Assembly: GCA_017849585.1 (NCBI GenBank)
Contig: JAFIGT010000031.1
Location: 1-64,000, forward strand
Source: Verrucomicrobium sp.
GTDB lineage: Bacteria > Verrucomicrobiota > Verrucomicrobiia > Methylacidiphilales > UBA1321
Direction of reading: 5' to 3'
DNA: 64,000 bases
The notes below the pieces were generated by a model that had not been told where the DNA came from, ran no database searches, and saw only the letters and a program-made list of their open reading frames with translations. Positions within the stretch are counted from its first letter, which is position 1, and the number at the start of each line of letters is the position of its first letter. Made by a program: the position numbers and the translations under genes. Below, in pieces: positions 9,442-14,097 of this stretch.

Positions 9442-12057
9442 TTAAGCCAACATTTTGATCTGCTCGAGCAAGCGTTGATGCTTCGCCGCGAGTTCGACTT
9501 GCAGCGCCTTCCACTCTTCCACTTTCGCGGCGGGAGCTTTGGCCAGCATATTGGTGTCGTTGAGCTTCTTGTTGGTGAGCTCAAGATCCTTGAGGGTCTT
9601 CGCCAGATCCTTGTCGAGACGCGCTTTTTCCGCAGCGGGATCGATGACCCCGGTCAGCGGCAAATAGAGCTCACCGATCGGCGTGAAGGCCACCGGCACA
9701 TTCTTCGGCGCGACCGAAACAATCTCCACCTCCTGCGCGTTGAGCAGCAACGCGAGCACTTCGATTTCCGCAGCGCTCAAGGCGTCCTTCGCGAGCAATT
9801 GGAATTTCAGTTTCTGATTCGAGGGAATGGCAAACTCGCCGCGTAGTGTGCGGCCATGATCGACCACGGAGTAGATCGCTTCCGCTTTTTCCGCGCCAGA
9901 GCGCGATTGTTTCGTCAATGTCGGCCACTCGGCGAATTGAATCGTCTCCGTGCCGAACCCGAGGCTGAGCCAAAGCTCCTCGGTGATGAACGGCGCATAC
10001 GGATGCAACAGGCGCAACACGCGCGAGAGCACAAAGTCGAACGTCGCCAAGGTGCCGTTGCGGGTCGGTGACTCGGGATTATTGAAGTCCGCCTTTGCAG
10101 TTTCGAGGAAGCGCGAGCAGAGGTCATTCCAGACGAAGTCGTAGAGACCGCTCGCCGCGTTGCTGAATTCGAATTTCGCAAATGCAACATTCACCGCTTC
10201 GTTCGTTTCGCCGAGGCGTTGCAGAATGTGCTGCGCGAAAGGCGTGAGCGCGTGCTGGTCCGGATTGGACTTCGCGTCGATCGGTCCCTGCATCGCACGG
10301 AAACGGCAGGCGTTCCAGAGCTTGTTGCAGAAGTTGCGACCTTCCTCGATCTGCTTTTCGTCGAAGCGAATATCCTGTCCCTGCGGCGCAATGCGCATGA
10401 GGCCGAAGCGGAGACCGTCCGCGCCGTACTTCGCAATCAGATCGAGCGGATCGGGCGAGTTGCCGAGCGATTTCGACATCTTGCGGCCCTTGCCGTCGCG
10501 AATGAGACCGGTGAAGTAGACATCCTTGAATGCGATGTTCTTCTTCAACGTCTCTTCCGGAGTCGCGCCTTCGCCACTCGGAAGGAATTCGAGGCCCGCG
10601 ATGATCATGCGCGCGACCCAGAGGAAAATAATATCCGGACCGGTGACGAGCACTGACGTGGGATAGAACTTGCGACGCGTCGCATCGTCCATCGTCTCGT
10701 ACGCCCACAACCACGAGGAGAACCACGTGTCGAGCGTGTCGGGATCCTGCTCCCAGCCTTCGCCGGGGGACGCGACCTGACACTTGATTTCCGTGCCCTT
10801 GTACCAGACGGGAATGCGATGACCCCACCAGACCTGGCGCGAGATGCACCAGTCCTGAATGTTCGTGAGCCAATGCTCGTACACCTTTTCCCAATGCGAG
10901 GGATAGAACTTGATGAGCTGTTCGCGCACGACCTTGAGCGCTTCCTCAGTCTTCGGATATTTGAGGAACCATTGTTCGCTCAAGCGCGGTTCGATCGGCA
11001 CATCGGCACGTTCGGAGAAGCCGACGTTATTCTCGTACGGTTCTTCCTTCACGAGCTGGTTCAGCTCTTTGAGCATCTCGACCGATTTCTTGCGCGCCTC
11101 GAAACGATCCAGCCCGTGCAACTCCGGCACTTCGGGGCAATTGATCTTTCCGTGGGGTGTGAGCACATCGATGATCGGCAGCTTGTGGCGCTGGCCGATT
11201 TCAAAATCCGCCTTGTCATGCGCGGGGGTCACCTTGAGCACGCCTGTACCGAACTTCGGATCAATGTGTTCGTCGGCGACGATGGGAATCTGCGCCTTCG
11301 GGAACGGACGCCACACGTGCTTGCCGAGGAGATCCTTGTAGCGTTCGTCGCCGGGATGCACCGCAATGGCCGTATCGCCCATGAGCGTTTCCGGTCGCGT
11401 GGTCGCGATCTCGAGGAAACGGCCCGGCTCTTCCGCCACTTCGTAGCGCATGTAGAAAAGATGACCCTTCTGCGCTTTCGGAATCACTTCCTCATCCGAG
11501 ATCGCCGTGAGCGAACCGGGGCACCAGTTCACCATGCGGTGACCTTTGTAAATATAGCCCTTGTGGAAAAGATCGACGAAGACCTGCTGCACGGCTTCGG
11601 CATAAGCGGTGTCGAGCGTGAATCGCTCGCGCTTCCAGTCGCACGAACAGCCGAGCTTCTTGAGCTGCTGAATAATAATGCCGCCGTGTTTTTCCTGCCA
11701 CGCCCAGACGCGGCGCAGGAATTCCTCGCGGCCGAGATCGTGTCGCGTCACCTGTTCGTTTTTGCGGAGATATTTCTCCACTGCCGTCTGCGTGGCGAGA
11801 CCCGCGTGATCGGTGCCGGGCAGCCAGAGCGCTTCCTTGCCTTCGAGCCGGGCCTTGCGGATGAGCACATCCTGAATTGTGTTGTTGAGCACATGGCCCA
11901 TGGTCAGCACGCCGGTGATGTTTGGCGGCGGGATGACGATGGAGTAGGCTTCCTTCGACGAGGATGCATCGGCTTCATAATAACCCTTCGCCAACCAGTC
12001 GGCGTAAAGGCGGTCTTCGACCTGTTGCGGTTCGTAAGCTTTGGCAAGTTCTTGCAT
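9442..12057 (-). CDS. valS: Valyl-tRNA synthetase
   Basis: 871 residues. This class I aminoacyl-tRNA synthetase charges tRNA-Val. The HIGH-type motif is in PPPNITGVLTMGHVLNN (about residues 43-59) and the KMSKS motif in KGRKMSKSLGNSPDPLDL, with a CP1 editing region between them. The C-terminus (about 805-871) is a Lys/Leu/Glu-rich coiled coil typical of the ValRS tRNA-binding arm. Length is within the bacterial range. It lies 146 bases downstream of cimA on the same strand. No T-box elements were seen upstream. Confidence 0.97.
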   Translation of the reverse strand: MQELAKAYEPQQVEDRLYADWLAKGYYEADASSSKEAYSIVIPPPNITGVLTMGHVLNNTIQDVLIRKARLEGKEALWLPGTDHAGLATQTAVEKYLRKNEQVTRHDLGREEFLRRVWAWQEKHGGIIIQQLKKLGCSCDWKRERFTLDTAYAEAVQQVFVDLFHKGYIYKGHRMVNWCPGSLTAISDEEVIPKAQKGHLFYMRYEVAEEPGRFLEIATTRPETLMGDTAIAVHPGDERYKDLLGKHVWRPFPKAQIPIVADEHIDPKFGTGVLKVTPAHDKADFEIGQRHKLPIIDVLTPHGKINCPEVPELHGLDRFEARKKSVEMLKELNQLVKEEPYENNVGFSERADVPIEPRLSEQWFLKYPKTEEALKVVREQLIKFYPSHWEKVYEHWLTNIQDWCISRQVWWGHRIPVWYKGTEIKCQVASPGEGWEQDPDTLDTWFSSWLWAYETMDDATRRKFYPTSVLVTGPDIIFLWVARMIIAGLEFLPSGEGATPEETLKKNIAFKDVYFTGLIRDGKGRKMSKSLGNSPDPLDLIAKYGADGLRFGLMRIAPQGQDIRFDEKQIEEGRNFCNKLWNACRFRAMQGPIDAKSNPDQHALTPFAQHILQRLGETNEAVNVAFAKFEFSNAASGLYDFVWNDLCSRFLETAKADFNNPESPTRNGTLATFDFVLSRVLRLLHPYAPFITEELWLSLGFGTETIQFAEWPTLTKQSRSGAEKAEAIYSVVDHGRTLRGEFAIPSNQKLKFQLLAKDALSAAEIEVLALLLNAQEVEIVSVAPKNVPVAFTPIGELYLPLTGVIDPAAEKARLDKDLAKTLKDLELTNKKLNDTNMLAKAPAAKVEEWKALQVELAAKHQRLLEQIKMLA

Positions 12058-12203: not shown

Positions 12204-13853
12204 TTACTTCGAGAACTTTTCCATGCCGTCATGCGCTAAATGCGAAAAAAATCGCTTCAGCTTCACCGGCACGCCGTCATGCTCCTTGATGAGTTTGTAC
12301 TCGACGCTGTCCTGCAGCGCGCGCCACGAGGCTTCGATGATATCGAATGACACACCAACGGTGGTCCACGTTTCTACGCCGTCAGTGGACTCGATGAGCA
12401 CCCGTGTTTTGGCCGCTGTGCCGGTATCGGAATCAAGGATGCGGACTTTGTAGTCCGTCAACCGAATATGCTGGATCGAGTGGTAATGCTTGCTCAGCGC
12501 CTGACGCAAGGCGGCATCAAGCGCATTTACCGGGCCATCGCCCTCCGCCACGGTGTACACTTTTTCGCCGTCGATGATGAGCTTGATCGTGGCCTCGCAC
12601 GTGTCGTAGTTGTGCAACTGGCTCTTGCGGATGGAAACGTGATACTCCTGCAGCTCAAAAAAGGCTTTGCGCTTTTGAAGCTGGCGGCGAACGAGGAGTT
12701 CGAACGAGGCATCTGCCGCCTCGAATTCGTATCCTTCGTTCTCCAATTGCTTGATGGTATCGAGGATCTGCTTCGTCTCAGGAGATTTCTCGTCCAGCTC
12801 CAGATCGAGCTGCTTCGCCTTGAGCATGACGTTGGTGCGACCGGAGAGCTCTCCCACGAGAACGTGCTGCTTGTTGCCAACGAGCTCCGGCTTGATGTGT
12901 TCGTAGCTGTGCGCGACTTTGTTGATCGCGTTAACATGCAGACCGCCCTTGTGCGCAAACGCGGTGACACCGACAAACGGCGCCCGGATGTTGTACCGTT
13001 GATTGGCCACCCCATCGACAAAGAGCGAGAGTTCGCGCAATCGGCGCATGCTTTCCTCCGGCACAACGGGGATGTTCAACTTGAGCTGCAACGCCGCCAT
13101 GACGGTGATGAGATTACAGTTGCCGGTGCGTTCGCCGTAACCATTGATCGTACCTTGCACCTGCGTCGCACCTGCGGAGACGGCGGCGAGCGCATTGGCC
13201 ACGCCAAGCCCGCAGTCGTCGTGCGTATGGATGCCAACTTGCACGCCCGTATCGACCAGCGTTTCCTTGATTTTCGCGGTGATGCGCAGCACGTCGCTCG
13301 GCATTGTGCCACCATTGGTGTCGCATAAAACGATGTAACTTGCCCCGGCTTCGGCCGCCGTGCGCAGACAGGAGAGAGCGTAATCGGGCGCATCCTTGAA
13401 GCCATCAAAACAATGTTCCGCGTCGTAGATGACTTCGCGGCCGAGGGATCTCAAATAACGCACGGTGTCGCCGATCATCGCGAGATTTTCTTCCGCCGTG
13501 GTGTTTAACACCTCAGTCACATGTAGCAGCCACGTCTTGCCGACGAGCGTGATGACCGGCGCCACGGAGTCAACCAGGGCGGCGACTTGCGGATCTTCTT
13601 CCACTTTCGTTTTCGCACGTCGAGTGCTGCCGAATGCGGCCAGCTTGGCGTGGGCGAACTTGATTTCTTTGGCCCGCTGAAAAAACTCGATATCCTTTTG
13701 ATTGGAACCGGGCCAACCGCCCTCAATGTAGTGCACACCGAAACTATCGAGCCGATGGGCGATATGCAGCTTATCGGCCACGGAAAAGTTGATCCCTTCG
13801 GCTTGGGCGCCGTCGCGTAAAGTCGTGTCGTAGATGGTGACTGCTGTTTTCAT
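12204..13853 (-). CDS. cimA: (R)-citramalate synthase
   Basis: 549 residues. It condenses pyruvate and acetyl-CoA to citramalate, the first step of threonine-independent isoleucine synthesis. The N-terminal TIM barrel starts YDTTLRDGAQAEGINFSVAD, with the metal-binding motif HTHDDCGLGVANAL and GTINGYGERTGNCNL further on. A C-terminal regulatory domain, similar to the LeuA dimer domain, occupies the last ~150 residues. The start GGWPGSNQKD-type context and overall length match the long citramalate synthase type rather than 2-isopropylmalate synthase. A GAGGAC ribosome-binding site precedes the ATG. The transcript leader has features of branched-chain amino acid attenuation (13950-14097). Confidence 0.88.
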   Translation of the reverse strand: MKTAVTIYDTTLRDGAQAEGINFSVADKLHIAHRLDSFGVHYIEGGWPGSNQKDIEFFQRAKEIKFAHAKLAAFGSTRRAKTKVEEDPQVAALVDSVAPVITLVGKTWLLHVTEVLNTTAEENLAMIGDTVRYLRSLGREVIYDAEHCFDGFKDAPDYALSCLRTAAEAGASYIVLCDTNGGTMPSDVLRITAKIKETLVDTGVQVGIHTHDDCGLGVANALAAVSAGATQVQGTINGYGERTGNCNLITVMAALQLKLNIPVVPEESMRRLRELSLFVDGVANQRYNIRAPFVGVTAFAHKGGLHVNAINKVAHSYEHIKPELVGNKQHVLVGELSGRTNVMLKAKQLDLELDEKSPETKQILDTIKQLENEGYEFEAADASFELLVRRQLQKRKAFFELQEYHVSIRKSQLHNYDTCEATIKLIIDGEKVYTVAEGDGPVNALDAALRQALSKHYHSIQHIRLTDYKVRILDSDTGTAAKTRVLIESTDGVETWTTVGVSFDIIEASWRALQDSVEYKLIKEHDGVPVKLKRFFSHLAHDGMEKFSK

Positions 13854-13949: not shown

Positions 13950-13962
13950 GCGGCTCTGCCGC
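13950..13962 (-). terminator. Putative attenuator hairpin in the cimA leader
   Basis: On the minus strand GCGGC-AGA-GCCGC forms a 5-bp GC stem followed by the pyrimidine-rich TCCTTTCTCT. The U tract is interrupted, so intrinsic termination would be weak or need help. Its loop and right arm overlap AGAGCC (13952-13957), which can instead pair with GGCTCT at 13982-13987, overlapping the leader stop codon. The two structures exclude each other. Confidence 0.45.
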
Positions 13963-13986
13963 GGGTCGCAGGGACCGGCGGAGAGC

Positions 13987-14058
13987 CTAAATAATGACGA
14001 CCGGAACCGAGAGCACGAGCCCGACGGGTGCCAAGAGAGGGTTCCGATACCGTTGCAT
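13987..14058 (-). CDS. Branched-chain amino acid leader peptide upstream of cimA
   Basis: A 23-codon ORF (ATG at 14058, TAG at 13987-13989) lying 133 bases upstream of cimA. Its C-terminal part reads LLAPVGLVLSVPVVII; 11 of 23 residues are Leu, Val or Ile, and the last four codons are Val-Val-Ile-Ile. This is the composition expected of a peptide that senses charged branched-chain tRNAs. A TTGACA box with a 17-base spacer to TACTCT ends about ten bases before the ATG, so the peptide would be translated from a nearly leaderless start. That it is translated is an inference. Confidence 0.6.
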   Translation of the reverse strand: MQRYRNPLLAPVGLVLSVPVVII

Positions 14059-14068
14059 GATGGTTGAA

Positions 14069-14097
14069 AGAGTACCCGCAGCCCCCGCCTCTGTCAA
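14069..14097 (-). promoter_or_regulatory. Candidate promoter of the cimA leader
   Basis: Minus-strand TTGACA (14092-14097), exactly 17 bases, then TACTCT (14069-14074). The -35 is a perfect match and the -10 is weak (3 of 6). The position just before the leader peptide supports it. Confidence 0.5.

Follow-up and report, generated by a model that had tools for sequence, protein, structure and literature searches.

The citramalate synthase gene cimA of a Verrucomicrobium sp. genome is very probably controlled by a valine/isoleucine leader peptide encoded upstream of it, in the 64,000-nucleotide stretch of DNA analyzed here (the window). Taken as a whole, the locus is best explained by a leader-peptide attenuator of the cimA-valS unit, a reading that we consider likely and for which we infer translation of the leader, its leaderless start, co-transcription of the two genes, attenuation and the polarity of the switch.

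A leader ORF rich in branched-chain residues precedes cimA and valS

On the minus strand of the window, cimA (12204..13853) encodes a 549-residue protein assigned as (R)-citramalate synthase by homology within the 2-isopropylmalate/citramalate synthase family. It is followed after a gap of about 146 nt by valS (9442..12057, minus strand), which encodes valyl-tRNA synthetase and is probably co-transcribed with cimA. The same order, cimA and then valS, is kept across the family, widely in Verrucomicrobiota and in some Planctomycetota, and fits a leader that carries both Val and Ile codons. Because no gene of this genome (96% complete) passed the cut-off for threonine deaminase and a separate leuA is present, the CimA/citramalate reaction is likely the route to isoleucine. 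A TIGR00973 search for this leuA matched cimA itself and a NifV-like gene, and these candidates were set aside; the likely leuA encodes another, type-2-like enzyme. A NifV-like gene for a putative homocitrate synthase at L002/L155 (G000:C41:99613-100725) adjoins a NifB-like gene, a neighborhood suggesting that the organism may be able to fix nitrogen.

Upstream of cimA, a 23-codon ORF closed by TAG can be read directly on the minus strand (13987..14058; ATG at 14058-14056, stop at 13989-13987). Its peptide, MQRYRNPLLAPVGLVLSVPVVII, carries Leu, Val or Ile at 11 of 23 positions and ends Pro-Val-Val-Ile-Ile-stop; the 11 residues and the Val-Val-Ile-Ile end had been described in a first-pass annotation of this DNA. 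The overlap which that annotation reported between the stop codon and GGCTCT is likewise there: GGCTCT occupies 13987-13982, its first G being the last base of TAG, and the proposed partner AGAGCC lies at 13957-13952. Ten nucleotides 5' of the ATG stands a -10-like box, TACTCT (14069..14074, minus strand), from which we infer the transcription start, separated by 17 nt from a -35-like box, TTGACA (14092..14097, minus strand).

The Ile/Val/Leu score of the best ORF upstream of cimA is unusual when compared with dinucleotide shuffles (p = 0.003). ORFs with a score of at least 8 occur in 17 of 120 cimA upstream regions vs 5 of 487 control regions (Fisher p = 4e-9), the controls having been drawn from ahead of other long ORFs on the cimA-bearing contigs; the effective number of positives is below 17, since some are near-duplicates or probable chance matches (L001/L006, L021/L103, L106/L111), and the direction is still clear. 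Two leaders were not flagged by the first ORF filter, namely that of L010, which was recognized by eye, and that of L011, which lies 411 nt upstream. The Ile-rich ORFs of the Methylacidiphilum relatives L106/L111, with TTG starts and weak promoter-like boxes, were taken as chance.

Reading frame and promoter spacing are kept within the family

Twelve family genomes were searched, ten of which have readable DNA upstream of cimA. A short in-frame ORF with an Ile/Val end precedes cimA in 10/10 of these testable genomes, L011 and L190 among them. Absence of a conserved leader ORF in relatives had been named beforehand as a refuting outcome; the ORF turned out to be conserved, frame included, and the earlier proposal of a Val/Ile leader peptide before cimA is thereby supported. 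Immediately before the stop codon, the leaders read VVII (G000, G010 and G011), IIVSIS (G009, GTG start), LIRII (G007, GTG start) or I/V-R-I-S, e.g. IVIRIS (G003, G004, G005, G006 and G008). N-terminal parts vary freely while the Ile/Val ends are kept, lengths differ by whole codons, and the stop is TAG, TAA or TGA in the same place, which together is the pattern expected of a translated control ORF.

The box pair is kept as well: all ten family members with readable upstream DNA have a -35-like box, TTGACA or TTGACG, at a spacing of exactly 17 nt, and in all of them the start codon stands 6-10 nt behind the -10-like box. With so short a distance between the promoter-like box pair and the start codon, the leader ORF is probably leaderless, the 5' UTR of its transcript being predicted at ~0-4 nt. 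The distance between leader stop and cimA ranges from 76 to 411 nt across relatives; in G004 (L011), extra hairpin-rich sequence puts an intact leader 411 nt upstream of the gene.

Conservation at close range was assessed between the window (L001) and its congener L007, whose CimA proteins are 82% identical (77% at the nucleotide level). The leader frame of L007 has no indels and 8 changed codons, its last nine codons being identical to those of the window, and a stretch of 45 identical bases extends from these codons through the stop into the beginning of the hairpin described below. Within cimA, the longest identical run is 23 (across 1602 nt), and codons at identical CimA residues are the same in 55% of cases.

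That a chance ORF and hairpin merely precede a constitutive gene might be read from the promoter-like boxes and the short stem treated below, each of which, taken alone, is near chance level. This explanation was already disfavored by the shuffle and control-upstream tests, and since 10 genomes conserve the ORF with its frame, the promoter spacing and a hairpin that covaries, we regard it as extremely improbable.

A covarying hairpin begins inside the leader stop codon

GGCTCT pairs with AGAGCC at the base of a single 14-bp hairpin (13987-13952), a structure absent from the first-pass annotation. The hairpin, GGCUCU-CCGC-C-GGUC-CCUGC-GACC-C-GCGG-C-AGAGCC (13952..13987, minus strand; -24 kcal/mol), has its 5' arm starting inside the stop codon and continues inward through the pairings CCGC/GCGG and GGTC/GACC, with one bulged C and one C-C mismatch. 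The fold of the 221-nt leader RNA is more stable than those of shuffled sequences (z = -2.2).

Comparison with relatives revealed compensatory changes in this structure. In the inner stem, GGUC/GACC of the window is replaced by GGUU/AACC in L007, and in the more distant L008 the tenth pair is G-C in place of C-G, the bulged C being retained. Hairpin compensations were found in genera g1/g3 and in g2, the latter having a different hairpin in the same place that begins 0-3 nt after the leader stop and whose fifth pair is G-C, G-U or A-U, depending on the species. Of 384 genomes of the class, four contain the pattern GGCTCTCCG-N(8-38)-CGGCAGAGCC, each as a single copy directly upstream of cimA; in five g2 genomes the motif TYCGAATTAGCTRR likewise occurs just once, where the leader ends ahead of cimA. 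As judged from these alignments, the conserved and covarying element is the long post-stop hairpin (GGCTCT...AGAGCC), to which the name antiterminator had been given in the first-pass annotation. No family of Rfam 15, its T-box and published leader motifs included, matched the window above gathering threshold, and an Rfam search of the leader yielded nothing up to E = 5.

Termination had instead been assigned to a shorter stem, GCGGC-AGA-GCCGC, followed by TCCTTTCTCT (13950..13962, minus strand). The stem is present and is the sole terminator-like site reported by a scan of the region; shuffles give 0.7 by chance, so that the stem alone is not significant. Its five base pairs, however, are not conserved: the counterpart in L007 is GGC-AGA-GCC with TTT after it, L008 likewise has 3 bp, and in no relative within the family does a good U tract follow it. 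The 5-bp stem was hence rejected as main terminator and is probably not the functional one. Behind the long hairpin, the window reads GCTCCTTTCTCTCC and has no canonical U tract, a break that the first-pass annotation had itself listed as a weak point, and most relatives are U-poor here. The post-stop hairpin is therefore not a standard intrinsic terminator. A classical, mutually exclusive pair of terminator and antiterminator, both conserved, was not seen either, and no second conserved alternative structure was found. An alternative duplex between GCUCU, in leader codons 15-17, and AGAGC was discarded, as it is missing in L008.

Ribosome position is predicted to govern hairpin folding

Masking folds were computed with the ribosome footprint removed up to the first base of the A site + 13. 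In the window, all pairs of the hairpin are retained while the A site holds Val20 or a preceding codon; with Val21 or Ile22 there the outer pairs open, and with Ile23 or the stop codon little of the hairpin is left. Placing the last Ile codon of the other tested leaders in the A site likewise disrupts or weakens the post-stop hairpin. By computation, masking folds and covariation together support an RNA structure that depends on ribosome position.

We propose that transcription from the promoter would begin on the leader ATG or no more than a few bases away from it, and that ribosomes would load directly on the leaderless message and translate the 23-codon peptide. As long as Val- and Ile-tRNA are charged, the ribosome would finish and leave, the hairpin would fold, and transcription would be attenuated before cimA. 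When Val or Ile is short, the ribosome would pause once its A site has reached Val21, Ile22 or Ile23; its leading edge would then rest on the 5' arm and keep the hairpin from closing, leading to expression of cimA-valS. In the simplest reading, attenuation is the work of the hairpin, which the waiting ribosome keeps open, a polarity to which we give even odds; the outcome depends on kinetics, because the hairpin can form during a stall at Val20 or any codon before it and is covered as well once a ribosome occupies the stop codon. The first-pass annotation had proposed that stalling lets the hairpin form and transcription read through. With Val21, Ile22 or Ile23 in the A site the hairpin is partly covered, so that this polarity may be reversed.

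Classical antitermination would require that a stall favors the GGCUCU/AGAGCC antiterminator, and that GGCUCU is masked once a ribosome has reached the stop, whereupon GCGGC-AGA-GCCGC would terminate transcription. The geometry of the window allows this, since the 5-bp stem survives a mask at the stop and the long hairpin survives a stall at Val20 or before; moreover, L100 resembles the classical layout, its stop-codon hairpin overlapping a possible second stem, GCGTTTG/CAAACGC, that is followed by TTTTAT. We nevertheless consider this model unlikely: only 3 bp of its terminator stem are kept in L007 and L008, a U tract is lacking, and the last Ile codons are so near the hairpin that its formation is blocked by stalling on them; in L023-L025, a ribosome on the Ile codons must likewise obstruct the hairpin.

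The missing U tract also speaks for Rho-dependent attenuation, by which Rho, once the ribosome is gone, would load on the sequence, rich in C and poor in G, that separates the hairpin from cimA, and a stalled ribosome or the hairpin would alter its access. A full Rho is encoded in the genome, and pyrimidine-rich sequence lies behind the hairpin in the window, L007 and L118. By itself, however, this mechanism does not explain a conserved hairpin that begins in the stop codon, and we hold it to be doubtful. Beside the full Rho, a second, shorter Rho-like protein is encoded at G000:C20:212829-213926 (L179).

Translational attenuation, as proposed for mycobacterial cys leaders, would have the leader RNA sequester the cimA start and a stalled ribosome free it. 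Actinobacteria provide a precedent in leaders without obvious terminators (PMC1262725), yet the variable distance between leader stop and cimA, with extra sequence in L011, is hard to reconcile with such a scheme, several relatives have no obvious Shine-Dalgarno sequence to sequester, and no conserved base pairing between leader and cimA start was seen, which makes this reading quite improbable. For the leader-peptide attenuator that we favor, the same range of distances suggests that the decision would fall within the leader and not where cimA begins.

Leaders elsewhere in the phylum and upstream of leuA

Similar leaders occur patchily elsewhere in Verrucomicrobiota. Outside the family, the same kind of leader precedes cimA in G026 (SIIIAIQTA), G021 (SISIIINA) and G016 (SIIITA), each sequence running to the stop codon, and further Verrucomicrobiota loci with a leader before cimA, not belonging to that set, are L023, L024 (SIIIAIIRD, then stop) and L025 (IIGAIALD, then stop). 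In L023-L025, the Ile codons themselves make the 5' arm of the hairpin, and a U-rich stretch lies downstream. These loci represent a different leader class (IIIAIIRD before the stop), with the stop codon placed in the loop of a 14-bp hairpin in L023 and L024; the 3' arm of the hairpin in this class can alternatively pair with downstream ATCACCCGC. In Methylacidiphilum-like and several other families of the order, cimA is present and no such leader was found upstream, a point that weighs against the attenuator reading.

The leuA genes of the family have a conserved Leu-rich leader of their own (MATHFHLALRLSLLPGLLA and MQITALSLRLTLLLPGLEGSAEAI, each read to the stop), near-leaderless and close behind a promoter-like box, which probably acts as a further attenuator in this lineage. 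At L171, this leader is followed by a GC stem and then CTTTTCTTTTT. Leaders of leuA were noted at L165 and L167-L172, and in the genome of the window at G000:C43, upstream of 73065 on the minus strand; their peptides include LRLSLLPGLLA (then stop) and LRLTLLLPGL..., and the sequence that follows them contains either U-rich stretches or a GC stem and CTTTTCTTTTT. No leader ORF was found in the ilvB upstream regions of the family. At the ilvB loci L137-L147, a conserved promoter-like stretch, GTTGCTAA...TAGTAT, lies directly before ilvB.

Discussion

The sensor described here very probably switches the citramalate pathway on when valine or isoleucine run short, and joint Val/Ile control of cimA and valS is indicated. 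Amino-acid attenuation by leader peptides would thereby extend to Verrucomicrobiota and to the citramalate pathway, in a lineage that appears to use leader peptides for leuA too. The repeated, probably leaderless layout, with a hairpin that starts from the stop codon and no U tract, offers a simple case for attenuation by a minimal switch. We tentatively raise the possibility, to which we give somewhat less than even weight, of a new attenuator class of Verrucomicrobiota, in which the ribosome on a leaderless message would act directly on one stop-codon-nested hairpin, without competing antiterminator or U-tract terminator, and would tie the citramalate route to valS via joint Val/Ile codons.

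Attenuation of branched-chain amino acid (BCAA) genes by leader peptides is classical. The ilvGMEDA and leuABCD attenuators of Enterobacteria share with the cimA leader a ribosome-read BCAA leader peptide and differ in Shine-Dalgarno initiation, in a four-segment switch with a U-tract terminator, and in controlling ilv/leu genes instead of cimA-valS. The first-pass annotation had remarked that cimA is not a commonly described attenuator target; our search, which covered part of the literature, found no description of a leader-peptide attenuator for cimA or in Verrucomicrobiota.

Among known systems, ilvBNC of Corynebacterium glutamicum has the leader MTIIRLVVVTARRLP, and its transcript begins a single nucleotide away from the start codon of that leader (PMC11857589), and the uORFs of Corynebacterium ilvBNC have been described as the ilvB-II motif (PMC10272879). 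Common to this system and the cimA leader are a short BCAA-rich leader ORF, a near-leaderless start, which is predicted for the cimA leader, and hairpins downstream, about 150 nt before the BCAA gene (PMC11857589, PMC10272879). The C. glutamicum leader is set apart by its ilvB target, an intrinsic terminator with a U run, a mutationally supported antiterminator and its occurrence in Actinobacteria; no sequence relation between the two leaders was seen. For Actinobacteria, predicted leader ORFs with Ile/Val/Leu codons overlapping hairpins have been reported, as have leaders without obvious terminators (PMC1262725). In the ilvB leaders of Corynebacterium, Mycobacterium and Streptomyces, Ile/Val/Leu codons overlap or abut the hairpin as they do before cimA, whereas poly-U follows these hairpins and the controlled gene is ilvB (PMC1262725). 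The mycobacterial Cys-leader attenuators, as outlined where they are cited (Canestrari 2020, cited in PMC13236596), resemble the probably leaderless cimA leader in that a leaderless short ORF would sense an amino acid with no obvious terminator; in that outline the amino acid is cysteine, unlike in the cimA leader, and the control is reported as translation attenuation of cys genes. Collectively, the principle is known, and the target (cimA), the phylum (Verrucomicrobiota) and the compact layout appear to be new.
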